Positions 49,033 through 61,114 of a stretch of DNA of 64,000 nt are shown piece after piece (position 1 is the stretch's first letter; every line of letters begins with the position of its first letter). The notes beneath the pieces were generated by a model that did not search any database, was not told where the DNA came from, and worked only from the letters and a program-made list of their open reading frames with translations. The translations under genes were made by a program, and so were the position numbers. The DNA comes from Acidovorax sp. A79. Its GTDB lineage: Bacteria; Pseudomonadota; Gammaproteobacteria; Burkholderiales; Burkholderiaceae_C. Location of the stretch: positions 2,498,001 through 2,562,000 of the forward strand of contig NZ_AP028672.1 in the NCBI RefSeq assembly GCF_041154505.1, given 5' to 3'.

Positions 49033-49099
49033 CAAAAAACTCCTGATTTGATAGCTTTCAGCGCTTTCTCATCAAGCGCTGGAGGCCGATCCGGCTTGA
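49033..49099 (+). repeat. dispersed palindromic repeat family A, copy 6
   Basis: TTTGATAGCTTTCAGCGCTT, TCTCATC, AAGCGCTGGAGGCCGATCCG. This is the clearest family member. It supplies the stop codon and last residues of the anchor J protein gene on the minus strand. Confidence 0.9.
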
Positions 49100-51327
49100 A
49101 ACCTGCGCAGCGCTGCCAGCCCCAGCAGCGCCGCCAGCACGAGCAGGCCCCATTCGGACAGCGTAGGAATCGCCTGCGCGCCGGCGGCCAGCCGCAGCAT
49201 GGCGTGCGGGTCGGCGATCGCGCCGGAGGCGGGATCGTTGTCGCCCATGCCGTTGTCGGTGACGGCAAAGCTCACCGTGTCGCCGCTGACCGCGCCATGC
49301 GGGAACCAGAGCGCCGTGGCACCGGCCGTGGCGGGGCCGAACTTGCGCGGCACCAGCCCCGCCAGGCTGCCGCTGGGGTAGGTGACGGCCACCGCCAGCG
49401 TGGCATTCGCGCAGCCCGTGGCCGTGAAGCGCAGCACGCCCAGCGGGGCGGTGGCGCCTGCGGGCAGGTTGTCGCCCGGGGCGGCGGCGGTCAGCGCCAG
49501 GCTGCCCACGGTGCAGCCCGCCGGGCCGCCGGAGATGCTGGCCTGCGCCACGCCGCCGCCGGGCACCGCCAGGCTGGCCTGGCCCACCGTCAGCGCCAGA
49601 GGCCCGCCCGTGGCGCTGGTGTTGTTGGCATCGCCCGCATAGCTGGCGGTGATGGCGTGCGCGCCCACCAGCAGGCCGCTGACGGTGCAGGCGGCCACGC
49701 TGCCCGTGATGGCGGGCGGGGCCGCGCAGGCCAGCGGCAGGCCGTCCGCGCTGAAGCTCACCGTGCCCGTGGGGTTGCTGGCGCTGCCGAACGTGGCGGT
49801 GAGGGTGACGCTGGCCCCCAGTGCGCTGGGGTTGGCGTTGGCCGCCAGCGCCAGCGTGGGCGCCGCCATCACGGCAAAGGTACGCGCTACGGGCGCCGCC
49901 GCCGCCCAGGCCCCGCCGCCCGGCTGGCTGGCCGTCAGCGTGCACGAGCCCGCGCCGCTGAAGCTGGCCACGCTGCCCGCCACGCTGCACGCGCCCGTGG
50001 CGCTGTAGGTGATGGGCAGGTTCGACGTCGCCGTGGCGCCCAGGGTCAGCGTGGTGCCCGCAGCCTGCGCGGGGATGGTGGCGGGGAGGAAGGTGATGCT
50101 CTGCGCGCCCAGGGGCGTGACCGCGTTGGTCACGGCGGCGTCCGAATCGGGTTGCGTGGGGGATCCGTTGTGCGCCACCACGCGGAACGTGTAGCTTGTT
50201 CCATTGGCCAGGTTCGCCACGGTGCAGCTGTGCCCGGAGCCGGTCACGGTGCAGGATCTGGCGGGGTCTTGCACGGCGGTGGCGGTGTAGCTGGTGATGG
50301 GGGCCCCATAGGCGTCCGCCCACCGTTCCGGGCTCCAGTCCACCGTCGCCTCGGCGTCGCCCGCGGTGGCGGTGGCGCTGGCCGGCGGGGGCGGCTTGCC
50401 TGCCTGCACCGTGATGGAAGTGGGCAGCGACGCCGAGCAGTGGCGGCTGTCCGTCACCGTGGCCGTGAAGCTGAACGTGCCCGTGGCCGTGGGGGTGCCG
50501 GAAATGGCGCCTGCAGCCGACAGCACCAGACCCGGCGGCAACGCCCCCGCCGCGACCGCGAAGGACGACCCGCCCACCGCCCCGGCCTGCGCCAGCGTGT
50601 AGGCATAAGCGGCCCCGGCCGTGCCGTTGGCGGGCGTGCCGGTGGCCGTCATGGCGGGGGCGGGGCAGAGCGTCACGTCGTCGATGCCGATGTAGTCGCC
50701 GTTCGCGCCGAAGGTGCCGGCGCCGGTCACGAAGTAGCGGAACGCGACGCGGCCCGAGGTGGGGGCGGCCAGCCCGGACACGGTGATGCGGTACTGCGTC
50801 CAGGCGGCGGGGTAGCCGCCCGCCGCCAGGCCAGGGTTGATGCTCGTCAGCAGCGTGGTGAAGTCTCCCACGTCGGTGGCGGTGGTGCCCACGTCCGTGC
50901 TGGCGCCCTGCGTGCTCATGCGCACTTCCAGGCGATCGGGGTAGTCCGTTGGGTTGGGGACCGGCTTGCGCGTATAGAAGGTCAGCACGTCGCCATTGCT
51001 CAGTGTGCGGTTCGGCATGACCAGCCAGTTGCTGATGGTGCCGCTGCTGCCCGTGTTCCTGAAGTTGGCCGCTATGTAGGCATTGGCTGCGCCGCTGTAG
51101 GCGTCGAACGGGCCGGGGTCCGGCAAGGCAGAGATGGGGGTGCCCTGGAACCAGCCCATGGCGCCCACCGGGGCGCTGTTGTTCTGCATGACCCAGCCAT
51201 TGCCCGATAGCGTGAAGGTTTCGTCAAAGCCTTCGTACAGGACTTGCGCAGGGGCCGCGCCCGGCAGCGCAGCCGCGGCGGCCAGCAGCAGGCCCACAAG
51301 GCGGGCGGTGGTGGAGGGGAATGGCAT
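49072..51327 (-). CDS. IPTL-CTERM surface protein with choice-of-anchor J, FN3 and Ig-like domains
   Basis: A 751-residue exported protein. After a signal peptide ending near APA-Q comes a choice-of-anchor J-type domain (about 29-220: VLYEGFDETFTLSGNGW ... DYIGIDDVTLCP), a putative-Ig module (PPGLVLSAAGAISGTPTATG), an FN3-like module with SYTFRVVAHNGSP, an Ig repeat (VTLTATFGSASNPTGTVSF) and a choice-of-anchor U-type module (LVPRKFGPATAGATALWFP). The C-terminus QAIPTLSEWGLLVLAALLGL is a canonical IPTL-CTERM signal for exosortase H-type processing. The last ten residues are encoded by a dispersed repeat copy. A palindromic operator lies 57 bases upstream of the start. Confidence 0.9.
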   Translation of the reverse strand: MPFPSTTARLVGLLLAAAAALPGAAPAQVLYEGFDETFTLSGNGWVMQNNSAPVGAMGWFQGTPISALPDPGPFDAYSGAANAYIAANFRNTGSSGTISNWLVMPNRTLSNGDVLTFYTRKPVPNPTDYPDRLEVRMSTQGASTDVGTTATDVGDFTTLLTSINPGLAAGGYPAAWTQYRITVSGLAAPTSGRVAFRYFVTGAGTFGANGDYIGIDDVTLCPAPAMTATGTPANGTAGAAYAYTLAQAGAVGGSSFAVAAGALPPGLVLSAAGAISGTPTATGTFSFTATVTDSRHCSASLPTSITVQAGKPPPPASATATAGDAEATVDWSPERWADAYGAPITSYTATAVQDPARSCTVTGSGHSCTVANLANGTSYTFRVVAHNGSPTQPDSDAAVTNAVTPLGAQSITFLPATIPAQAAGTTLTLGATATSNLPITYSATGACSVAGSVASFSGAGSCTLTASQPGGGAWAAAAPVARTFAVMAAPTLALAANANPSALGASVTLTATFGSASNPTGTVSFSADGLPLACAAPPAITGSVAACTVSGLLVGAHAITASYAGDANNTSATGGPLALTVGQASLAVPGGGVAQASISGGPAGCTVGSLALTAAAPGDNLPAGATAPLGVLRFTATGCANATLAVAVTYPSGSLAGLVPRKFGPATAGATALWFPHGAVSGDTVSFAVTDNGMGDNDPASGAIADPHAMLRLAAGAQAIPTLSEWGLLVLAALLGLAALRRFQAGSASSA
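49191..49474. repeat. 284-bp direct repeat, copy 1 (anchor U module)
   Basis: Aligns without gaps to 51610-51893; I count about five mismatches. It encodes the choice-of-anchor U-type module of the anchor J protein. The near-identity implies recent duplication or gene conversion. Confidence 0.92.
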
Positions 51328-51383
51328 GGGTGGGCTGGTGGCGATGAAGATGCGCCATGTTGCCGTTGCCTGCCGCTTTTGTA

Positions 51384-51403
51384 TGTCCTCAGAACTGAGG
51401 ACA
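51384..51403. promoter_or_regulatory. palindromic operator, copy 1 (TGTCCTCAG-AA-CTGAGGACA)
   Basis: A perfect 9-bp inverted repeat with a 2-base spacer, 57 bases upstream of the anchor J protein gene. It lies in a 33-bp block repeated with one mismatch before the Kelch gene. It is probably bound by the local LuxR-type response regulator. Confidence 0.75.
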
Positions 51404-51423
51404 AGGCCCTGCCAGGGTTCTAT

Positions 51424-51476
51424 GCAAAAAATAGCCCCCAGCGCCCACCCATCAAGCGCCAGCAGCTACAAAAAGA
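51424..51476 (-). repeat. dispersed palindromic repeat family A, copy 7
   Basis: AAAAAATAGCCCCCAGCGCC...AAGCGCCAGCAGCTACAAAAA, between the Kelch gene end and the operator of the anchor J gene. Confidence 0.8.
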
Positions 51477-51484
51477 GAAGTGAT

Positions 51485-54400
51485 TCACACCACCCGCCTT
51501 CCCACGCGGCCCGCTGACAGCGCCACCAGGGCCAGCAGGGCCGACAGCAGCAGCAAGCCCCCTTCGGACAGCGCCGGAATCGCCTGCGCGCCGGCGGGCC
51601 CGGCGGCCAGCAGCAGCATGGCGTGCGGGTCGGCGATGGCGCCGGGGGCGGGATCGTTGTCGCCCGTGCCGTTGTCGGTGACGGCAAAGCTCACCGTGTC
51701 GCCGCTGACCGCGCCATGCGGGAACCAGAGCGCCGTGGCACCGGCCGTGGCGGGGCCGAACTTGCGCGGCACCAGCCCCGCCAGGCTGCCGCCGGGGTAG
51801 GTGACGGCCACCGCCAGCGTGGCATTCGCGCAGCCCGTGGCCGTGAAGCGCAGCACGCCCAGCGGGGCGGTGGCGCCTGCGGGCAGGTTGTCGGCGCCGG
51901 TGGCCGCGCTCAGGCCCAGGGTGTTCACGGTGCAGCCGGGCGGGCCGCCGGTGATGCCGACCTGCGCCGTGCTGCCGCCGCCGCCCGGCACGGGCACGGC
52001 AGCGGTGTTGACGGTGTGCGCCAGCGGGCTGGCGGTGGCGGGCGCGTTGTCGGCGTCGCCCGTGTAGCTGGCGGTGATGCTGTGCAGGCCCATGGCCAGG
52101 CTGCTGGTGGCGCAGGTGGCCACGCCGCCGCTGAAGGTGGCCGTGGTGCAGGCCAGCGGCGCGCCATCCACGCTGAACGCCACCTGGCCCGTGGGGCTGG
52201 CGGATGCGCCGTTCAGCGTGGCGGTGAAGGTGACGCTGGCGCCCACGGCGCTGGCGGACAGGGCCAGCGTGGGCTGGGCCTGCGTGCCCAGCAGCAGCGC
52301 GTTGGACGCCATGCCGTTCACGAACGCCCGCAGCGCATACCGGCCGCTGGGCAGCACGCCCGGCGCGGCCACGTCGATGCTGGCGGCGGTGGAGCCGGTG
52401 GGCGCGAGCCAGGTGTGCGCGCCGTTGTCCAGCCGCGTCAACTGCACCAGCGGCAAGGGGGTGGGCGATGCGCTGGTGCCGCCGCCGCTGGCCTCGCTGT
52501 CGCCACGCAGCCGCAAACCGGTGAGGGTGAAGGCCGCGCCGCTCAACCGGGCGGGGCCGCCGGTCAATGTGGGAATGCGGGCCGGGGGCACTGCGCCGCC
52601 GGCAGGGTCGTAGCGCTCGGCGGTGGCGATGCCGCTGGTGGCCGTGACGCCGTCGCGCCCCCCGGCGGCGAGCACCGTGCCATCGGGCAGCACGGTGGCG
52701 GTGTGGTAGGCGCGCACAGTGGCCAGCGCGCCGGTGGCGGCCCAGGCGCCCGTGGCGGGGTCGTACAGTTCGGCGCTGCCCAGGTAGCCGCCACCACCCC
52801 CCCCAGCGGCCAAAACCTTGCCGCCGGGCAGCAGGGTTGCGGTGTGGCCGGAGCGTCCGGTGTTGAGCGGGCCGGTGGGGCTCCATGCGTTCAGGGCGGG
52901 GTCGTAGAGTTCGGCGCTGCCGAGGTATGCGCCGCTGTACCCCCCCGCGACAAGCACCTTGCCCTGGGGCAGCAGGGTGGCGGTGTGTGTCCAGCGCGGG
53001 CTGGCCATCGCGCCGGCGCCGCTCCAGGTGCCCGAGGCGGGGTCGTACAGCTCGGCGCTGCCCAGGGGGCCGCCGCTGCCATTCCCCCCCGCGACGAGCA
53101 CCCTGCCGGTGGGCAGCAGGGTGGCCGTGGGCCCTTGGCGTGCGGCGCTCATCGCGCTCGTGGCGGACCAGAGGCCGGTGGCGGGGTCGTACAGCTCGGC
53201 GGTGGCGGTTTGGCTGTTGCTGATGTTGCTGCCCCAGCCCCCCACGACCAGCACCTGGCCGCTGGGCAGCAGGGCGGCGGCATGCCATAAGCGGGGGCTG
53301 GCCATCGCGCCGGTGCCGCTCCAGGTGCCCGTGGCGGGGTCGTAGAGTTCGGCGCTGGCGAGCGCTCCTGCGCTGCCGAGGCCGCCCACGACGAGCACCT
53401 TGCCGCCGGGCAGCAAGGTGGCGGTGTGGTAGGCGCGCGCGGCGGCCAGCGGGCCCGTGGCGGCCCAGGCGCCGGTGGCGGGGTTGTACAGCGCGGCAGC
53501 GCCGATGAGCTGCCCGGTGCCATAACCGGCGCCCCCGCCCGCGACGAGCACCTTGCCGTCCGGCAGCAGGGTGGCCGTGTGCTCCGTGCGCTGGCCTGGC
53601 AGCGCGCCGGTACCCTCCCAGGTGCCGATGGCGGGGTCGTAGAGCTCGGTGCTGGCGAGCAGCGCGCCAAGGTCGCTGGCGCCCCCGATGAAGAGCACCT
53701 TGCCCTGGGGCAGCAGGGTGGCGATGTGGCGCCAGCGCCCGTCGTTCAGGCCGCCGGCGGCGGTCCATTGGTTGGTGTCAGGGTCGTACAGTTCGGCGCT
53801 TTGGAGAGCGCTGCCGCTGCCGAAGCCTCCCGCCACGAGCACCTTGCCGCCGGGCAGCAGCGTGGCGGTGTGGAACAAGCGCTTGCTGTTCAGCGAGGCG
53901 GCAGGCGCCCAGGTATCGCCCTGGGGGTCATACAGCTCGGCGCTGGCAAGCTGCTCGCTGCCGCTGTTTCCGCCCACGGCAAGCACCCTGCCGTCGGGCA
54001 GCAAGGTGGCGGTGAAATCGCTGCGCGGCCCTTGCGGCAGCGGGGCGGCGGAGCCCCAGGTGTTGTCGCTCGGGCGGTACACCTCGGCGGTGGCGAGGTA
54101 TCCGGTGCCGTTGCCGCCGCCGACGACGAGCACCCTGCCGTCGGCCAGCAAGGTGGCGGTATGGCCCTGGCGCGCTTCGGCCAACTGCCCGGCGGGGGAC
54201 CAGGCGCCGGTGGCGGGGTCGTACAGTTCGGCCTGGGCCACCTGCCCCCCACTGGCGTGGCCGCCCGCGACGAGCACCCGGCCATCGGCCAGCAGGGTGG
54301 CGGTGTGTTCCGTGCGCGGCTGGGCCAGCGCGCTGGCACCGCTCCACAAGCCGGTGGCGGGGTCGTACAGCTCGACGCTGGCGATGAATGCGCTGCCGTC

Positions 54401-54733
54401 GTAGCCACCCGCCACGAGCACCTTGCCATGGGGCAGCAAGGTGGCGGTGTGGCCGCGGCGCGCGTGGGCGAGCGGGCCGGTGGCGGCCCACTGGCCGGCG
54501 GCGGGGTCGTACAGCTCGGCGCTGGCAAGGTGGCTGAGGCTGCCACCGCCATAGCCGCCCGCGACGAGCACCTTGCCGTTGGGCAGCTGGGTGCTGGTGT
54601 GCCATTGGCGCCCATCGCCCAGGCTGCCGCTGACCGCCCAGGTGCCCGCCTGGGCGTGGGCGGCCAGGCAGGCGATGGCGATGAACACGAGCTGGAGCAG
54701 CAGGGCGCGCAGGGCGCAGGGGCGGCGGGGCAT
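51485..54733 (-). CDS. 14-repeat Kelch surface protein with choice-of-anchor U and degenerate IPTL signal
   Basis: A 1,082-residue exported protein from ATG 54733 (signal peptide MPRRPCALRALLLQLVFIA...). It has 14 Kelch repeats of about 50 residues, each with a LP.GKVLVAGG core (for example LPNGKVLVAGGYGG, LPHGKVLVAGGYDG, LPSGQVLVVGGWGS), enough for two seven-bladed propellers. An Ig-like module (VTFTATLNGASASPTGQVAF) and a choice-of-anchor U-type module follow. The C-terminus QAIPALSEGGLLLLSALLAL then GRVGRRVV has lost the W of IPTLxxWG, so sorting may be altered. It lies under a copy of the palindromic operator and upstream of nothing else on its strand until the anchor J gene. Confidence 0.9.
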   Translation of the reverse strand: MPRRPCALRALLLQLVFIAIACLAAHAQAGTWAVSGSLGDGRQWHTSTQLPNGKVLVAGGYGGGSLSHLASAELYDPAAGQWAATGPLAHARRGHTATLLPHGKVLVAGGYDGSAFIASVELYDPATGLWSGASALAQPRTEHTATLLADGRVLVAGGHASGGQVAQAELYDPATGAWSPAGQLAEARQGHTATLLADGRVLVVGGGNGTGYLATAEVYRPSDNTWGSAAPLPQGPRSDFTATLLPDGRVLAVGGNSGSEQLASAELYDPQGDTWAPAASLNSKRLFHTATLLPGGKVLVAGGFGSGSALQSAELYDPDTNQWTAAGGLNDGRWRHIATLLPQGKVLFIGGASDLGALLASTELYDPAIGTWEGTGALPGQRTEHTATLLPDGKVLVAGGGAGYGTGQLIGAAALYNPATGAWAATGPLAAARAYHTATLLPGGKVLVVGGLGSAGALASAELYDPATGTWSGTGAMASPRLWHAAALLPSGQVLVVGGWGSNISNSQTATAELYDPATGLWSATSAMSAARQGPTATLLPTGRVLVAGGNGSGGPLGSAELYDPASGTWSGAGAMASPRWTHTATLLPQGKVLVAGGYSGAYLGSAELYDPALNAWSPTGPLNTGRSGHTATLLPGGKVLAAGGGGGGYLGSAELYDPATGAWAATGALATVRAYHTATVLPDGTVLAAGGRDGVTATSGIATAERYDPAGGAVPPARIPTLTGGPARLSGAAFTLTGLRLRGDSEASGGGTSASPTPLPLVQLTRLDNGAHTWLAPTGSTAASIDVAAPGVLPSGRYALRAFVNGMASNALLLGTQAQPTLALSASAVGASVTFTATLNGASASPTGQVAFSVDGAPLACTTATFSGGVATCATSSLAMGLHSITASYTGDADNAPATASPLAHTVNTAAVPVPGGGGSTAQVGITGGPPGCTVNTLGLSAATGADNLPAGATAPLGVLRFTATGCANATLAVAVTYPGGSLAGLVPRKFGPATAGATALWFPHGAVSGDTVSFAVTDNGTGDNDPAPGAIADPHAMLLLAAGPAGAQAIPALSEGGLLLLSALLALVALSAGRVGRRVV
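51610..51893. repeat. 284-bp direct repeat, copy 2 (anchor U module)
   Basis: Partner of 49191-49474, encoding the same module in the Kelch protein. The spacing of 2,419 bp and shared orientation make deletion or conversion between copies possible. Confidence 0.92.
52600..54620. repeat. tandem DNA repeats of the Kelch units
   Basis: About 14 units of roughly 140-165 bp, each containing TACAGCTCGGCGCTG-like and GCCACGAGCACCTTGCC-like blocks, recur through this stretch and encode the Kelch repeats. Unit boundaries are approximate. Confidence 0.85.
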
Positions 54734-54792
54734 GGCGGGGGCTTGGTGTGTGACGAACCGCCGGAATGTTAAGAAATTGCAACGCGCCTGTA

Positions 54793-54812
54793 TGTCCTCA
54801 GAACTGAGGACA
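54793..54812. promoter_or_regulatory. palindromic operator, copy 2 (TGTCCTCAG-AA-CTGAGGACA)
   Basis: A perfect copy 60 bases upstream of the Kelch gene start, in the same relative position as copy 1. The block 54790-54822 matches 51381-51413 with one mismatch. Confidence 0.75.
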
Positions 54813-54832
54813 AGGCCTTGCCGGAGTTTGAT

Positions 54833-54884
54833 GCCAAACAGGCCTCCAGCGCTTAGCAGGCAAGCGCCGGCAGCTATCAAAAGA
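54833..54884 (-). repeat. dispersed palindromic repeat family A, copy 8
   Basis: GCCAAACAGGCCTCCAGCGC, TTAGCAGG, CAAGCGCCGGCAGCTATCAA, between the kinase stop and the Kelch operator. Confidence 0.82.
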
Positions 54885-54892
54885 GTAGTACA

Positions 54893-56869
54893 TCAAGCCC
54901 CGCGCGCCAGCGGCAGCCACAGGGTGAATTCGCCCCCGCCCTCCCACGCCGCCCACTGGCAGCGCCCGCCCAGGGCCTGGGCGCGGTGGCGCACGTTGAG
55001 CAGGCCCTGCCCGGCCAGGGCGGCGGGCGGGCCTTCGGACAGCACGAAGGCGCCTGCGTTGTCGCGGATGCGCACCACCACGCCCGCGCCGCCCTGCCCG
55101 GCTTGCGCCTGCGGCGCGGTGGCCACGTCGATCAGGGTGGCCTGGGTGTGCTTGAGGATGTTGGCCAGCACTTCTTGCAGGATGCGCAGCACGTGCAGCG
55201 CGGACTGCGGGTCGAGCCAGGGCAGCGGGGGCAGGTCCTGCACGTTCCAGGCAAGGGTGATGCCCGCGGCCTTGAGCCGGGGCGCCAGGCGAAAGCGCAC
55301 GGCCGCCAGCAGCGCCAGCAGGTCGGCATCGGCGGGGTCCAGCGAGTCGATGGCGAGCTTGAGGTCGTCGATGCAGTCCTTGAGCACCTGGGCCGTGTCG
55401 GCCGTGCTGGCCTGGCCGCGCTCGACCATGCGCAGCGCGCTCATCAGCGACGAGCCGATGCCGTCGTGCATGTCCTGCATCATGCGCTGGCGCTCGGTGG
55501 CCAGGGTCTGCTGGCGCTCCAGCGCGCGCAGTTGCTCGTGGCTGGCGGTCAGTTCGCGCTCGCGGGCGGCGAGCTGGCTTTCCAGCCCGGCGTTGGCCAC
55601 CTCGACCGCGTGGATGGCGCCCACGTAGCGCCGCCAGACGATGGCCAGGAAGATGGCGAACAGGCCGATGGCGTTGTAGGGCGCCAGATAGACATGTTCC
55701 ATGTCGATGCGGTAGTTGACCATCAGCAGGTCGTGCGCGCCCGCGGGCACGTTCAGCGAGAACCAGGCGAACAGCACCAGCCCCTCGCGCGACCGCGCGC
55801 GCCACGAGGCCCACAGGCCCGACGCGGCCACCACCGCCGTCAGCACGGTGATGACGAGATAGACCAGCGGCAGCATGGCATCGAGGTACGGCAGCAGCGG
55901 CGGCAGCGGCAGGGTGAGCACGGTGCCCAGCGACACCAGCCCCGCGATGCCCAGCGCCAGCGCGGGCATGCGCCGCCCGTGCACGCGGAAGGCGAAGGCG
56001 AAGGTGCACACCATGGCCCAGCCCAGCGAATTGACGGTCATCCAGCCGAACCAGTCGTCGGGCACGGGCAGGGGCCGGTCGTCCACCACGTAGTGCAGGC
56101 TGCGCAGCAAGGTGGTGACGGAGATGGCGAAGAACAGCAGGTAGATGGGCTCGCGGCGGCGCACGCAGCCCACGGCCAGCGCGAACAGGCCAATGGCCAG
56201 AAAGGCGGCGCCGGTCAGGCTGATGAAGTCGTTCTGCACGAAGCGGCGCACGCTGTAGCGCCACAGCAGGTTCTGCTCGGTGCCCACCCAGGCGCTGGAG
56301 ACGGCCCCGCCCACGCCGCGCTGGCTGGCCATGCGCAGCCACACGGTGCGGGGCGGCTCGCCACCGGCGGCTTGGTTGCCCAGCGCCACCCACAGGGGCC
56401 GGTTGAAGCTGTTCCACACGCGGCTGCCGCGCGTGCGGTAGGCCATGCGGCCATCGACATAGACGGCGACGATGCCGATGGTCTGCCAGCGCGGCAGGTA
56501 CAGAAACAAGTCCTGGCCCGGCGCGCCCGATGCGCTGGGGGCACCGGGTGTACCGGGCGGGGGCAGGTCGAGCCGGTACCAGGCCACGTCGGGCGGGGCC
56601 CGCAGCGAGGCGCCGCCCTCGGCCAGGCTGCGCTCCCGCGCGTGGGGCAGCGGCACGCTGGCCCACGCGCCTTTCTCCTCCTCCCCTGCGAAGGGCGGCG
56701 CGGGCGGAGGTTCCCAGCCCGCGCCGGGCTCCATGCGGAAGGCGGCCTGCCGCAGGTGCGTGGGGTTATCGGTAGCGCTGCCGCCGCCGCAGGCCGCGAG
56801 CCAGGCGGCCAACAGCAGCGCGGCGCACCACCTACCCGTTCGCCAGAAGGCCTTGCCTGTGGGCGGCAT
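54893..56869 (-). CDS. NarL-class membrane sensor histidine kinase
   Basis: A 658-residue sensor kinase. The N-terminus has a signal with lipobox LAAC and an extracytoplasmic sensor domain (about 25-225). Seven or so membrane helices follow (about 235-425, from FISLTGAAFLAIGLFALAV onward), like 7TM-DISM receptors. A coiled coil leads to the HisKA_3 phosphoacceptor H468 in MMQDMHDGIGSSLMSALRM. The ATPase domain shows LQEVLANILKHTQAT and GQGLLNVRHRAQALGGRC. The gene overlaps the response regulator stop by 38 bases and is downstream of it, so both are one transcript. It is the expected partner of that LuxR-type regulator. Confidence 0.93.
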   Translation of the reverse strand: MPPTGKAFWRTGRWCAALLLAAWLAACGGGSATDNPTHLRQAAFRMEPGAGWEPPPAPPFAGEEEKGAWASVPLPHARERSLAEGGASLRAPPDVAWYRLDLPPPGTPGAPSASGAPGQDLFLYLPRWQTIGIVAVYVDGRMAYRTRGSRVWNSFNRPLWVALGNQAAGGEPPRTVWLRMASQRGVGGAVSSAWVGTEQNLLWRYSVRRFVQNDFISLTGAAFLAIGLFALAVGCVRRREPIYLLFFAISVTTLLRSLHYVVDDRPLPVPDDWFGWMTVNSLGWAMVCTFAFAFRVHGRRMPALALGIAGLVSLGTVLTLPLPPLLPYLDAMLPLVYLVITVLTAVVAASGLWASWRARSREGLVLFAWFSLNVPAGAHDLLMVNYRIDMEHVYLAPYNAIGLFAIFLAIVWRRYVGAIHAVEVANAGLESQLAARERELTASHEQLRALERQQTLATERQRMMQDMHDGIGSSLMSALRMVERGQASTADTAQVLKDCIDDLKLAIDSLDPADADLLALLAAVRFRLAPRLKAAGITLAWNVQDLPPLPWLDPQSALHVLRILQEVLANILKHTQATLIDVATAPQAQAGQGGAGVVVRIRDNAGAFVLSEGPPAALAGQGLLNVRHRAQALGGRCQWAAWEGGGEFTLWLPLARGA

Positions 56870-57536
56870 GGATGGCCTCGGCGCGCGTGTTGACCTGCAG
56901 CTTGGCGTAGATGCGCCGCACGAAGGTGAGCACCGTGGTGCGGGAGACGCCCATGGTGCGGGCCGTCTCCTCGGTGGTGAAGCCCTTGCTCACGCAGCGC
57001 AGCACCTCCTGCTCGCGCGCGGACAGCAGCGCGGCGGGCGGCTCGGTGGCGGGCGGCAGGCTGGCGGCGGCGCGCGCCAGGATCTTGCGCGCCACCATGG
57101 GGCTGATGGGGCTGCCGCCCGCGTGGATGCTGCGGATTTCCTCGGCCAGCTCGGCGGCGCTCACGTCCTTGAGCAGGTAGCCCATGGCCCCGGCCTCGAT
57201 GGAGCGCAGCACGTGCGTTTCATCGCCAAAGATGGTGCTCACCAGCACGCTGCAGCCGGGCCACTGCGCGCGCGCGGCGCGGATCACGTCCAGGCCCGAG
57301 CCGTCGGGCAGGCCCAGGTCCACCAGCAGCACATCCATGGGCGACTGGGGCAGCAGCGCCAGCGCCTCGGCCCGGCTGGCCGCCGCCATGGCCAGCGCCA
57401 GGTCGGGCTGCGCGCCGATCATGGCGATGAAGGTGTCGCGGCAGGCCGGGTCGTCCTCGACCACGCCCACCCGCAAAGGAGCCGGCAGGCGCGCGGGCCA
57501 GGGGGCGGGCAGGGGCGGGGCGGTGTCGGGGGCCAT
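56832..57536 (-). CDS. NarL/LuxR-type response regulator
   Basis: A 234-residue response regulator. The receiver has E27-D28-D29 and phosphoacceptor D73 in VLLVDLGLPDGSG, with the conserved K in GYLLKD. The LuxR helix-turn-helix is at about 170-230 (LSAREQEVLRCVSKGFTTEE, MGVSRTTVLTFVRRIYAKLQ). I use the ATG at 57536; a TTG at 57554 is possible. It heads the operon with the sensor kinase. The palindrome at 57574-57593, just upstream, may be its own binding site, giving autoregulation and control of the divergent beta-helix gene. Confidence 0.93.
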   Translation of the reverse strand: MAPDTAPPLPAPWPARLPAPLRVGVVEDDPACRDTFIAMIGAQPDLALAMAAASRAEALALLPQSPMDVLLVDLGLPDGSGLDVIRAARAQWPGCSVLVSTIFGDETHVLRSIEAGAMGYLLKDVSAAELAEEIRSIHAGGSPISPMVARKILARAAASLPPATEPPAALLSAREQEVLRCVSKGFTTEETARTMGVSRTTVLTFVRRIYAKLQVNTRAEAIHAAHRQGLLANG

Positions 57537-57573
57537 GGGCTGGATTATGGGCAAGCGCCGGGCAGCAGCGCCA

Positions 57574-57593
57574 TGTCATCAGTTCTGAGGACA
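57574..57593. promoter_or_regulatory. palindromic operator, copy 3 (TGTCATCAG-TT-CTGAGGACA)
   Basis: One mismatch from the perfect palindrome. It lies 38 bases before the response regulator start and 101 before the divergent beta-helix gene. The following bases ACAGGCGC also match the Kelch promoter, in the orientation facing the beta-helix gene. Confidence 0.7.
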
Positions 57594-57640
57594 GACAGGC
57601 GCATGGCCAATCCCTACCATCTGTGACTTCACGCCAATGC

Positions 57641-57693
57641 TTTCAATTTCATAGCTGCCTGCGCTTTCTGCGTGGGCGCTGGAAGCCTTTTTC
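57641..57693 (+). repeat. dispersed palindromic repeat family A, copy 9
   Basis: TTTCATAGCTGCCTGCGCTT, TCTGCGTG, GGCGCTGGAAGCCTTTTTC. It ends at the start codon of the beta-helix gene and provides the TGGAAG that may serve as its ribosome site. Confidence 0.82.
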
Positions 57694-58722
57694 ATGCCCA
57701 AACGAATCGCCCTCGCCGCCGCCTGCCTGCTGGCCGCCAGCCTGGCCCCCGCGGCCACCATCACCGTCAACACCACGACCGTCATGGGGGGCGACGGCCT
57801 GTGCAGCCTGACCGAGGCCCTCGGCAGCGCGGTGACGGATACCGTCTGGGACGCCGACTGCGCGCTGGGCAGCGGCGCCGACACCATCGCGTTCGACCCC
57901 GCCGCCTTTCCCGCAGGCAGCACCATCACGCTGGGCAGCGCGCTGGACATCTACCAGGCCTCGAACACCACCATCGACGGCGGCGGGCGCGTGACCCTGG
58001 ACGGCGGCGGCGCCACACCCCTGGTCACCGCCACGCTGGCGGGCACCACGCTCACGCTGCGCGGGCTGACGCTGGCCGGCGGCAATACCGCCGGCGGCGG
58101 CCCGACGGATGGCGGCGGCATCTACGCGGACGGCGTCACCCTGAACATCGACCACAGCGTCATCACCGGCAACACGGCCCTGGCCAACGGCGGCGGCCTC
58201 TTCAGCCGCGACAGCACGGTGACCATCACGGACAGCCAGTTCACCGCCAACACCGCCAGCCTGGGCGGCGCCGTCTACAGCACGGGCAGCGGCTCGCTGA
58301 CGGTGGCGAACAGCCGCTTCACGGGCAACATCGCCGGCCAGCAGGGCGGCGCCCTCTACAGCGGCGTGAACACGCTGGTCACCGGCAGCATCATTGCCAA
58401 CAACGCCAGCCCCGCCGCAGGCGGCGCGAACAGGGGCGCGGGCGTCCGGTTCAGTGCTCCGGCCGGGCACACGTTCACGCTGAACCACAACCAGATCACC
58501 GACAACACGCCCGGCGACAACTGCTATAGCGCCATCCCCTTCACCGGCACGGGCAACCAGTACTGGCCGGAGAGCGACACGAGCTGCCCCGCAGCCGCGG
58601 GCCGCTTCGCCAACCCCCTTGCGCCGCCCGCGGCCATCCCCGTGGATGCGCCCTGGGCGCTGGCGCTGCTGTCTGCGCTGGTGGCCGCGCTGGGCTTGCA
58701 CCGGCGGCGAGGCGGCGTTTAA
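57694..58722 (+). CDS. secreted right-handed beta-helix protein with IPTL-like tail
   Basis: A 342-residue exported protein. The signal peptide MPKRIALAAACLLAASLAPA is followed by a CSLREA-like start, TITVNTTTVMGGDGLCSLTEA, then parallel beta-helix coils with repeated TLTLRGLTLAGGNTAGGG- and SVITGNTALANGGGLFS-type units, as in polymorphic outer-membrane repeats. The C-terminus AIPVDAPWALALLSALVAAL then HRRRG has the length and layout of an IPTL-CTERM anchor, but the motif is degenerate. It is divergent from the response regulator, under operator copy 3. The ATG directly follows a dispersed repeat copy. Confidence 0.87.
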   Translation: MPKRIALAAACLLAASLAPAATITVNTTTVMGGDGLCSLTEALGSAVTDTVWDADCALGSGADTIAFDPAAFPAGSTITLGSALDIYQASNTTIDGGGRVTLDGGGATPLVTATLAGTTLTLRGLTLAGGNTAGGGPTDGGGIYADGVTLNIDHSVITGNTALANGGGLFSRDSTVTITDSQFTANTASLGGAVYSTGSGSLTVANSRFTGNIAGQQGGALYSGVNTLVTGSIIANNASPAAGGANRGAGVRFSAPAGHTFTLNHNQITDNTPGDNCYSAIPFTGTGNQYWPESDTSCPAAAGRFANPLAPPAAIPVDAPWALALLSALVAALGLHRRRGGV

Positions 58723-58778
58723 AGCCAAAACACCCTTCAACGCCCGCTCAGCAAGCGCAAACAGCTATCAAAACAAAA
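58720..58778 (-). repeat. dispersed palindromic repeat family A, copy 10
   Basis: AAAGCCAAAACACCCTTCAA...GCAAGCGCAAACAGCTATCA then AAACAAAAGC. It fills the gap between the two beta-helix genes and forms the leader of the second. Confidence 0.78.
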
Positions 58779-58789
58779 GCAAACAAACC

Positions 58790-61048
58790 ATGTTCCACAC
58801 CCCGTGCCCCCATCCCCTGCGCGGGCTGGCCTGCGCCGCCGCGCTGGTGGCCGCTGGCGCCGCCCAGGCGGCCAGCCTCACCGTGACCAACGGCAACGAC
58901 AGCGGCCCGGGCAGCCTGCGCCAGGCGCTCGCCGATGCCAACGCCAGCGGCGACACCATCGCCTTCGCGGGCGGCGTGTCCCGCGTGGCGCTGCTGGGCC
59001 AGCTCGTCATCGGCAAGAGCGTCACCATCGACGGCCCCGGCGTCACGCTGGACGGGCAGCTTCGGGGCCGCGTGCTGTGGGTCAACGCGGGCGCCACCGC
59101 CACCCTGCGCGGGCTGGTCATCACGCGCGGGCTGCTGGCAGGCAAGGGGATCGACGTGGGCGGCACGGCGCAGTCGGGCTCGTCCTGGGGCGCGGGCATC
59201 CGCAACGATGGCACGCTCACGCTCGACGGCGTGCAGGTGCAGGGCAACTACGCCACGGGCGGCGGGCAGAGCGGCATGGGCGGCGGCGGCGGGGGCAGCG
59301 GCGTGGGGCTGAACATCGGCCAGCCGGGCGAGATCAAGGGCGCGGGCGGCAGCGGAGGCAATGGCAGCAGCCTCAATGGAGGCGGTAGCGGCGCCATCGA
59401 TACACCAACGGGTGGGGAGGGTTTCAGCAATGGCGGCAGCGGCAGCCATGGCGGGGGCGCGGGGGGCGGTGGCGCCGGTGGTGGCGGTGCCGGCGGCGGT
59501 GGCTGGGCGGGCGGCGGTGGCGGTGGCGGATGGTACGGCGCGGGAGGTGGCGGCTATGGCGGCGGCGGCGGGAACACCGACGCCGGGAACGGCAGCAACG
59601 GCAGCAGCGGCGGCGCAGGCGCAACCCTTGCAGGAAACGGCGGCACCGGCAGCACGGGCTTTCCAGGAAATGCTGGTGACACGGGCGGCGGCGGGGGGTA
59701 TGCCACGCTCGGCGGCGTCTGGGTGGGCGGCGGCGGGGGCGGGGGATGGATTAGCGGCGGCGGAAATAGCGCCGGCGGCGCGGCGGCCGGCGGCATCTAC
59801 AACGCGCCGGGCGCGCAACTCACGGTGCAGGGCGCGGGCTGCGCCATCAGCGCCAACCTGGCCGCGGGCGGTGGCGGTAGTGGTCACCCTGCCAGCTTCG
59901 CTGGCGGCCAGGCCGTGGGCGGGCTGTGGAACGATGGCCAGCTGACCCTGGCGCCCGGCTGCGAACACAGCGTCAGCGGCAACGCGGCCGGCGCCGGGAT
60001 GCGGGGCCGGAACGCAGGCCCTGACCGCGCCGACGCCGACCTGCGCGACGACAAGCTGCTGCAACTGGCCGTGCTGTCCACGGGCGGCAGCGTGGGCGCC
60101 ACGGCCCCGCCCACCCCCACGGCAGGCCAGATCACCAACTGCATTGCGAGCAGCGGCACCTGCCAGGCCAGCTACCTCGCGGGCGGCGTGGTGACCCTCA
60201 CGGCCACGCCCGTCACCGACTGGCACGTGGTGTGGGGCGGCGACTGCGCCGGCAGCGCCACCACCTGCACCGTCACCCTGGACCAGGCGCGCAGCGTGAC
60301 GGCGAGCTTCGCCATCAACACCCATGCCCTCAGCGCCAGCGCATCGCCCGCCGGCGGCGGCATCGTCACCTGCCCGGCGAGCGTGAACCACGGCGGCGGC
60401 GCCACCTGCACCGCCAGCGCGCCCCACGCGGGCTTCACCTTCACCGGCTTTACCGGCTGCGACGGCGTGGACCTGCCCAGCCGCACCTGCACCCTCGCCA
60501 ACGTGCAGGCCCCGCGCAGCGTGCAGGCGCAGTACGCGGCCATCACCACCGCCACCGGCACCACCGTGCCGGCCGGCGGCGCGGGGGGCGCGGCCAGCGC
60601 CAGCTTCACCGGCGGGGGGGCGGGCTGCCGCTTCGACCCGGCGGCCACCGGGTTCATCGCGGCGGCCGCAACGCCGCCAGGCCACACCGCGCCGCAAGGC
60701 GCATTCCGCTTCAAGCTGGTGGGCTGCACCCCGGGCGCGACGGTGCGCGTCACCACCATCTGGCCGCAGGCGGTGGACGACTTCATCAAGCACAGCCATG
60801 GCAACTTCATCACGCCCGGCAACCTGCTCATCAACGGCAACACCGTGGGCTTTGACGTGACCGACGGCGGCGTGGGCGATGACGACGGCCTGCAGAACGG
60901 CGAGATCCTGGACCCGGCGATGCCCCTGGCCGCCGCACCCCCCAGCGCCCATGGCATCCCGGCACTGGGCGGATGGGGCTTGCTGCTGCTCACGCTGCTG
61001 GCGGGCACGGCAGGCATGGTGGCGCAGCGGCGCAAGGCATTCGCCTGA
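58790..61048 (+). CDS. secreted glycine-rich beta-helix protein with choice-of-anchor U and IPTL-like tail
   Basis: A 752-residue exported protein. After a signal peptide ending near AQA-A, a CSLREA-like segment (NDSGPGSLRQALADANASGD) starts a beta-helix. Residues about 150-345 are very Gly-rich, with runs such as GGGAGGGGAGGGGWAGGGG. Two Cys-containing repeats follow (WGGDCAGSATTCTVTLDQAR, GFTGCDGVDLPSRTCTLANV), then a choice-of-anchor U-like module (IWPQAVDDFIKHSHGNF). The tail HGIPALGGWGLLLLTLLAGT ends in QRRK, an IPTL-CTERM variant that keeps the W. The start ATG 58790 has no Shine-Dalgarno; its leader is A-rich repeat sequence, so it may depend on the upstream gene. Confidence 0.87.
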   Translation: MFHTPCPHPLRGLACAAALVAAGAAQAASLTVTNGNDSGPGSLRQALADANASGDTIAFAGGVSRVALLGQLVIGKSVTIDGPGVTLDGQLRGRVLWVNAGATATLRGLVITRGLLAGKGIDVGGTAQSGSSWGAGIRNDGTLTLDGVQVQGNYATGGGQSGMGGGGGGSGVGLNIGQPGEIKGAGGSGGNGSSLNGGGSGAIDTPTGGEGFSNGGSGSHGGGAGGGGAGGGGAGGGGWAGGGGGGGWYGAGGGGYGGGGGNTDAGNGSNGSSGGAGATLAGNGGTGSTGFPGNAGDTGGGGGYATLGGVWVGGGGGGGWISGGGNSAGGAAAGGIYNAPGAQLTVQGAGCAISANLAAGGGGSGHPASFAGGQAVGGLWNDGQLTLAPGCEHSVSGNAAGAGMRGRNAGPDRADADLRDDKLLQLAVLSTGGSVGATAPPTPTAGQITNCIASSGTCQASYLAGGVVTLTATPVTDWHVVWGGDCAGSATTCTVTLDQARSVTASFAINTHALSASASPAGGGIVTCPASVNHGGGATCTASAPHAGFTFTGFTGCDGVDLPSRTCTLANVQAPRSVQAQYAAITTATGTTVPAGGAGGAASASFTGGGAGCRFDPAATGFIAAAATPPGHTAPQGAFRFKLVGCTPGATVRVTTIWPQAVDDFIKHSHGNFITPGNLLINGNTVGFDVTDGGVGDDDGLQNGEILDPAMPLAAAPPSAHGIPALGGWGLLLLTLLAGTAGMVAQRRKAFA

Positions 61049-61056
61049 ACACAGAC

Positions 61057-61114
61057 GGGGGCCAGCGCTCGCCCAGCAAGCGCAAGCAGCTATTACATCA
61101 ATAGCAAAAAAAAC
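61057..61114 (-). repeat. dispersed palindromic repeat family A, copy 11
   Basis: GGCCAGCGCTCGCCCAGCAA, GCGCAAGCAGCTATTACATC then AATAGCAAAA. It abuts the dctA terminator. Confidence 0.8.

Follow-up and report, generated by a model that had tools for sequence, protein, structure and literature searches.

A two-component system, PrsK/PrsR, and a shared upstream motif have been described for PEP-CTERM genes in Proteobacteria (PMC1569441, PMC9850573). PrsR is of the NtrC/Fis type, and the motif, carried by 99 of 167 proteobacterial PEP-CTERM genes, includes a sigma-54 (−24/−12) site (PMC1569441, PMC9850573). No description of the regulation of IPTL-CTERM proteins, or of the system analyzed here, was found in the literature searched, in which IPTL-CTERM was mentioned only for one S-layer protein; a literature search on exosortase H/XrtH returned nothing on IPTL-CTERM regulation, as judged by title. 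Here, we analyzed a stretch of 64,000 nucleotides from Acidovorax sp. A79 (contig NZ_AP028672.1, positions 2,498,001 to 2,562,000; hereafter, the window), in which a 20-bp palindrome recurs within a cluster of IPTL-CTERM surface-protein genes that also encodes a sensor kinase and a NarL/LuxR-type response regulator. The recurrence of the palindrome is confirmed and far exceeds chance expectation, and the regulator of the cluster is very probably its reader.

The operator, TGTCCTCAG-N2-CTGAGGACA, forms a perfect palindrome at 51384–51403 (minus strand), 56 bp before the start codon of a choice-of-anchor J protein gene, and at 54793–54812 (minus strand), 59 bp before the start codon of a Kelch-repeat protein gene; a third copy with one mismatch, at 57574–57593 (no strand assigned), lies between the response-regulator gene and a beta-helix protein gene. 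The initial annotation had, by eye, placed the palindrome at these three positions and nowhere else in the window, and a scan at up to three mismatches reproduced the same sites and mismatches (0.02 sites expected; 0 of 100 shuffles reached three), with no further match anywhere in the window. At the same threshold, the whole genome (5,872,218 bases) contained four sites, as compared to none for a reversed-pattern control. The fourth, at C1:4220164 (L087), has the same sequence as the third and stands 122 bp upstream of a second Kelch gene with an IPTL-CTERM. All four sites are near IPTL-CTERM genes, and many copies far from CTERM genes were not seen; the proposal of a strictly local regulon had to be abandoned, since the fourth site lies ~1.67 Mb away. 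The same four sites are present in G085, another genome of the species. Among four other genomes of the genus, G262 has a single operator match with two mismatches and the other three have none at up to two mismatches, while perfect copies among the 399 genomes of the family were listed for Acidovorax sp. A79 itself (G000) and G085 only.

The response-regulator gene (56832–57536, minus strand) encodes a receiver domain (PF00072, 69.3 bits; cut-off 30.2) and a GerE/LuxR helix-turn-helix domain (PF00196, 54.7 bits; cut-off 23.5), with T200, L203 and T204 in the recognition helix; no sigma-54 interaction domain was present among its Pfam matches. We consider it highly likely that this regulator binds the palindrome and thereby activates four IPTL-CTERM transcription units, with the sensor kinase acting upstream. 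The palindrome would be bound by the NarL/LuxR-type regulator encoded in the cluster itself: the membrane sensor kinase would phosphorylate the regulator, whose dimer would then bind the 20-bp dyad and activate a promoter with a weak −35 element abutting the dyad and a −10 hexamer 21 bases after it, the dyad centre at about −43.5 corresponding to a class II activator position. The predicted output comprises the J, Kelch and beta-helix genes (the last perhaps with its downstream neighbor) and the distant second Kelch gene, and the third site probably also serves autoregulation of the regulator and kinase. The sequence itself indicates the sites and how rare they are, together with the geometry of the promoters and the covariation of regulator and operator; from these we infer binding, phosphorylation dependence, activation over repression, and autoregulation.

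Each operator in the window is part of a putative composite promoter. The first (51357–51403, minus strand) consists of the operator, TACA, 17 bases and a −10-like CAACAT (51357–51362), with one mismatch to the composite pattern. The second (54766–54812, minus strand), with TACA, 17 bases and TAACAT (54766–54771), and the third (57574–57620, plus strand), which faces the beta-helix gene and has GACA, 17 bases and TACCAT (57615–57620), match without mismatches. Among 26 operators (mostly one per surface gene, with the direction chosen by hand and further dyads left out; L101 and L102 were kept without a clear surface gene), TANNNT begins exactly 21 bases past the dyad in the surface-gene direction in 19, as compared to a mean of 0.09 and a maximum of 1 at 53 other offsets, and [TG]AC[AG] directly follows the dyad in 24. 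If the −10 hexamer occupies −12 to −7, the dyad covers approximately −53 to −34, the adjacent KACA takes the −35 position, and the spacer measures 17 bases. A dyad/−35/−10 arrangement of this kind is that of an activator docked just upstream of the polymerase.

The same layout could also accommodate a regulator that binds the palindrome as a repressor, with the signal lifting repression: the dyad abuts the −35 element and could hinder RNA polymerase, and the direction of control is not readable from the sequence. However, an exact 21-base spacing, which recurs at IPTL and adhesin promoters, is in general typical of activators that touch the polymerase, and a repressor does not generally need a fixed distance. 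We therefore regard repression as unlikely and retain activation by the regulator as the working model.

At up to one mismatch, the composite promoter pattern had seven matches in the genome and none for the control, all seven at three paralogous systems or at the satellite Kelch gene. It superseded a general pattern, TGTCNCC-N6-GGNGACA, which at up to one mismatch occurred at 26 places in this genome versus 6 for the control, the paralogue sites C1:3559382 and C2:97507 being among its matches. In the 399 family genomes, the composite pattern occurred without mismatches at 56 places in 40 genomes, with 6 control matches (hand count). By a hand count, 26 of the 56 fall in 15 of the 21 genomes in which a regulator of the set defined below was verified, versus matches in 25 of 378 other genomes, an association that is descriptive only, the pattern having been partly derived from sites that it recovers.

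We collected relatives by searching the regulator against the 399 family genomes, taking the DNA around the better matches, and adding order-level matches. Three further loci (L191–L193), including one from Dyella flagellata, a gammaproteobacterium, came from a public scan whose listed matches were mostly distant regulators and of whose 80 loci these three were used. The resulting set, defined by an [FY]VRR recognition helix, comprises 33 loci with 34 regulators. In the 330 bp upstream of the regulator gene, 24 of them have a strict dyad, TGTM-N12-KACA, versus 3 of 34 other NarL-type regulators (L160 and L164 included). Whole set loci contain 43 strict dyads in 616 kb, or 69.8 per Mb (two dyads judged to be chance occurrences, window 29660 and L100 6313, are counted here and were dropped from the later dyad list), while three sets of other loci gave 22.2, 13.3 and 20.9 per Mb, and five Markov simulations gave 1–8 strict dyads per run. 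For this density comparison, L160 and L164 were left out of the other-regulator loci because dyads had already been seen at their regulators. Also left out were L155 and L156, which belong to the set, and L188, which represents the same region as L103. L187 was kept; it has two strict dyads.

The dyads of the relatives share a common architecture with differing bases, for example TGTCCCCAGAACTGGGGACA, TGTCGCCCGTTTGGGCGACA and TGTAGCCTCAAACGGCTACA. The nearest relative, L088, whose regulator is 69% identical, has the half-sites TGTCATC and TGTCCTC, both of which also occur in the window, and these precede a Kelch/IPTL gene despite a different gene order. A tree of 32 regulators (29 from the set and 3 others) places the window regulator within an 11-member branch, eight members of which are IPTL-linked, with a support of 99/99. 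As a separate observation, locus L354 (G003, C1:282505) carries a broken family regulator, with the receiver in two pieces and no recognition helix matched, next to a dyad that has been kept; the same genome has a composite promoter at L317 (C1:4605072), elsewhere from the broken regulator, before a glycine-rich, surface-like gene.

We further compared residue differences with half-site differences across 28 regulator–operator pairs, correcting for receiver-domain divergence. The pairs correspond to the 28 of 34 regulators with an assigned operator; for L092, which has two dyads, the TGTAGCAC one was used, and L093 entered without its third dyad and L096 without two of its dyads (2998 and 3819), with reruns made without these choices. 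For half-site bases 4–9 together, residues 200, 204 and 203 ranked 1, 4 and 8 among 143 variable columns. Residue 204 ranked first for base 4, with Ser mostly accompanying A and Thr mostly C. Residue 203 ranked first for base 5, where Arg mostly goes with G, and for base 8, where Leu or Gln mostly go with A and Arg mostly with C. Phe at residue 200 accompanies A at base 4; T at base 6 accompanies Thr or Ser there, as seen in two regulators. In all three reruns residue 200 came first overall and residue 204 first for base 4; two of the three also placed residue 203 first for bases 5 and 8. The chance of three given columns all lying in the top 8 of 143 is approximately 1e-4 if columns are independent, which they are not; under the same assumption, the chance of their lying in the top 22 of 141, as in the mechanical rerun, is 0.003. 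The window regulator, with T200, L203 and T204 and the operator TGTC[CA]TCAG, fits these trends, to which the pair itself contributes. By a hand count along the alignment, residues 200, 203 and 204 correspond to K179, K182 and N183 of DosR, which are described as base-contacting in two papers (PMC4082495, PMC5861037); these residues were looked for and not found in PMC3029386.

The sensor kinase gene (54893–56869, minus strand) overlaps the regulator gene by 38 bases and encodes a HisKA_3-like core. The protein has a predicted extracytoplasmic beta domain (residues ~37–197) followed by membrane-type helices in a structure model with a mean predicted local distance difference test score of 83.7 and a predicted template-modeling score of 0.64. 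Foldseek listed kinase cores, with DesK and VraS as the best matches of the kinase core, and did not match the sensor domain. Pfam scores are below the curated cut-offs for HisKA_3 and HATPase_c (18.9 against 24 and 24.3 against 26.4), and the 7TMR-DISM score of 28.2 bits is under its cut-off of 29. The putative phosphoacceptor pair H468-D469, as well as N570 and D603, is invariant across 29 aligned kinases.

Several observations weigh against the activation model and the generality of the dyad rule. The [FY]VRR set was drawn up after dyads had been seen to accompany that helix, and ten of its 34 regulators have no strict nearby dyad: L103, L191 and L192 have a relaxed or 21-bp version instead, L088 and L090 have a dyad only at another gene of the locus, and near the regulators of L155, L193, L301, L303 and L305 no dyad was found (a relaxed dyad 6.8 kb away in L155 was dismissed). 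Nine regulators were added later by helix type alone, and three of them have a strict dyad and two a relaxed one, so that the first set overstates how general the rule is. L157, L160 and L164, whose regulators have a different helix type, also have a dyad. In the covariation test, residue 203 falls to 22nd place overall when sites are chosen mechanically, with 4th place for base 5 and 10th for base 8; L152 and L156 (Leu203 with G5), L088 (Arg203 without G5) and L091 (Arg203 with A8) are exceptions to the trends; and some receiver-domain columns rank high too, indicating that phylogenetic signal remains in the test. The window kinase has DNAGAF as its G1 box, which in relatives is mostly D[ND]GxPF on the same regulator branch and DNGxGF in most others, so that kinase activity is not assured and is possibly reduced. 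Finally, promoters facing regulator genes do not keep the strict dyad-to-−10 spacing: the possible −10 of the response-regulator gene, CATAAT (57544–57549, minus strand), would lie 24 bases from the third operator, off the usual distance. This makes the initially proposed autoregulation less certain.

The ten regulators without a strict nearby dyad, and the fact that dyads of such length suit many dimeric regulators, could also mean that the palindrome is read by a different DNA-binding protein encoded elsewhere, the proximity of the regulator being coincidental. However, variant dyads lie beside the other 24 regulators of this helix type, and the dyad variant tracks the recognition-helix residues of the regulator, which makes a different reader quite improbable. 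Both lines of evidence support the cluster's response regulator as the probable reader of the operator, as initially proposed.

There is even less room for the notion that the sites are copies of one promoter, left by a recent duplication of surface genes and without conserved function. Two of the targets are indeed Kelch proteins, and sites 1 and 2 agree at 25 of 45 upstream bases. However, in pairwise comparisons of the four genomic sites, the 20-bp operators agree at 19–20 bases, while the other five pairs agree at 9–18 of 45 bases upstream and all six at 19–30 of 70 downstream, so that recent duplication of whole promoters does not account for the identity of the operators. The target proteins also differ (J, Kelch and beta-helix), and relatives keep the geometry with different dyad bases; we regard the chance of such an origin as negligible. 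A role as an RNA hairpin or terminator, which a perfect inverted repeat might suggest, is scarcely credible, as the palindrome lies upstream of the conserved −10 hexamer, outside the predicted transcript, and is not followed by a T-run.

The targets in the window are the J protein (49072–51327, minus strand), which also carries choice-of-anchor U, Big_3_5 and fn3 domains; the Kelch-repeat protein (51485–54733, minus strand), with Big_3_5 and choice-of-anchor U; and the beta-helix protein (57694–58722, plus strand). These gene calls, each with an IPTL-CTERM, stand as initially annotated, together with the receiver and GerE/LuxR domains of the regulator and the below-cut-off HisKA_3/HATPase_c similarity of the kinase. 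A second IPTL-CTERM protein gene downstream of the beta-helix gene (58790–61048, plus strand; InlB-type repeat, choice-of-anchor U) has no operator of its own; it starts 67 bases after the beta-helix gene on the same strand and is perhaps in an operon with it. PF18203 (cut-off 20.8) scores are 37.2, 26.8, 22.7 and 22.5 bits in the window and 52.0 for the satellite Kelch protein, and TIGR04174 scored 19.6 for the beta-helix protein in one search (cut-off 20.5) and 24.1 in another. The genome has an exosortase H gene at C1:112513 (TIGR04177, 212.9 bits; cut-off 86), whose product would sort these IPTL-CTERM proteins.

The genome contains 50 IPTL-CTERM matches over the family cut-off, and the operator lies upstream of 4 of these genes, in all cases the ones described above. 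For the other 46, the best match in the scanned stretch had at least five mismatches; for the IPTL-CTERM gene at C1:3.56 Mb, this stretch ended before the likely start, a region covered by the whole-genome search. Control of the entire IPTL-CTERM set by the palindrome was ruled out on this basis. An IPTL-type regulon had been predicted, and the type is borne out by all four sites, each beside an IPTL-CTERM gene; its extent is restricted to 4 of the 50, plus perhaps one operon gene.

Three such sensor systems exist in the genome, two on the chromosome and one on a 166-kb second contig, each adjoining an IPTL-CTERM gene. The two paralogous systems, at G000:C2:97480–97553 (L085, 9481–9554) and G000:C1:3559382–3559428 (L086, 9383–9429), have their own dyads, which are more alike to each other than to that of the window, so that the two may cross-talk. 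Separately, an extragenic repeat, AAGCGCNNGCAGCTA, occurs near gene borders of the cluster (12 window matches at up to two mismatches versus 3.06 expected), with copies at 49052–49066, 51454–51468, 54862–54876, 57652–57666, 58753–58767 and 61078–61092; it is possibly a terminator-like element or one resembling repetitive extragenic palindromes (REP).

Across the set, 19 of 33 loci have a dyad in front of a gene for a surface or secretion protein, which lies either on the far side of the dyad from the regulator gene or at another place in the locus. Genes with an IPTL-CTERM follow the dyad in the window, L085, L086, L088, L089, L094, L098 and L100, with the L095 target scoring 17.3 bits, below the cut-off of 20.8. 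Other targets are two-partner-secretion (TPS)/ESPR exoproteins (L093, L096, L304), ShlB-type transporters (L092, L103, L151, L192), an inverse autotransporter (L104), and immunoglobulin-repeat proteins with a tail that, by eye, is hydrophobic and arginine-rich (L097, L099). Non-surface loci encode an AAA protein (L090), a cytochrome c-like protein (L091) and a beta-propeller (L306), and L152 and L156 are adenine glycosylase/GNAT-like (L156 by eye). No family was assigned to the L101 target, and L102, L191 and L302 have no clear target. An IPTL-specific type of system and an IPTL-specific regulator family are ruled out by the TPS adhesins, transporters, inverse autotransporter and non-surface neighbors. 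In L092 and L093 (both in G099) and in L096 (G395), adhesin and transporter genes are preceded by a mixture of two operator types; with two family regulators in one genome, this suggests possible cross-wiring between paralogues.

These loci probably represent a portable family of sensor–surface-protein cassettes, a view that we hold with less assurance than the activation model itself. The promoter would be fixed (20-bp dyad, KACR, 17 bases, −10), with operator bases largely set by three helix residues; copies would drift to their own operators and coexist, three of them here, while the surface protein varies among IPTL-CTERM proteins, TPS adhesins and inverse autotransporters. As far as sequence evidence goes, the core interpretation of the initial annotation appears right in kind, and the system larger and better defined than proposed.

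Among the other composite matches in the family genomes are dyads of the TGTACGCCA and TGTCCTC types, followed by genes of transporter-like or catabolic appearance, as judged by eye. These non-surface matches suggest that the composite geometry may be common to a wider group of NarL-type regulators. A TGTACGCCA-NN-TGGCGTACA-like dyad occurs within a composite promoter in seven genomes (L327, L333 and L334, together with G089, G167, G191 and G210), and in the three loci this promoter precedes genes resembling, by eye, those for transporter substrate-binding proteins. TGTCCTC-like dyads of the same geometry were seen in L187 (4705 and 6642), L325, L329, L330, L335, L338 and L339, before genes that look catabolic or secreted by eye (Rieske-like, acyl-CoA ligase-like); those of L187 are ~8–10 kb from a NarL-type regulator of a different subgroup.

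If correct, the activation model would provide a precise and testable promoter and regulator for IPTL-CTERM proteins, a specificity code between operator bases and three helix residues, and a means of identifying, among 50 similar surface proteins, those co-expressed under one sensor. The system resembles PrsK/PrsR in tying a two-component system and a common upstream motif to a family of CTERM surface proteins, and differs from it in its NarL-type regulator, its promoter with a −10 hexamer, and the presence of its site at 4 of 50 IPTL-CTERM genes. The window regulator shares the receiver and GerE domains of the NarL/FixJ regulators DosR/DevR, VraR and NarL, but is set apart by its proposed TGTM... 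half-site, which differs from the binding sites of NarL, GacA and DosR, and by the set of operator variants beside surface-protein genes. Other Burkholderiales TGT...ACA promoters, some of which are expected by chance given the six control matches, have the same composite geometry but stand before non-surface genes, transporter-like or of catabolic type by eye. BvgA/BvgS controls a broad virulence regulon in Bordetella. BvgA is likewise a NarL-type regulator that controls a large TPS adhesin, filamentous haemagglutinin; unlike that system, the one described here would consist of small cassettes with differing operators and include non-TPS targets.

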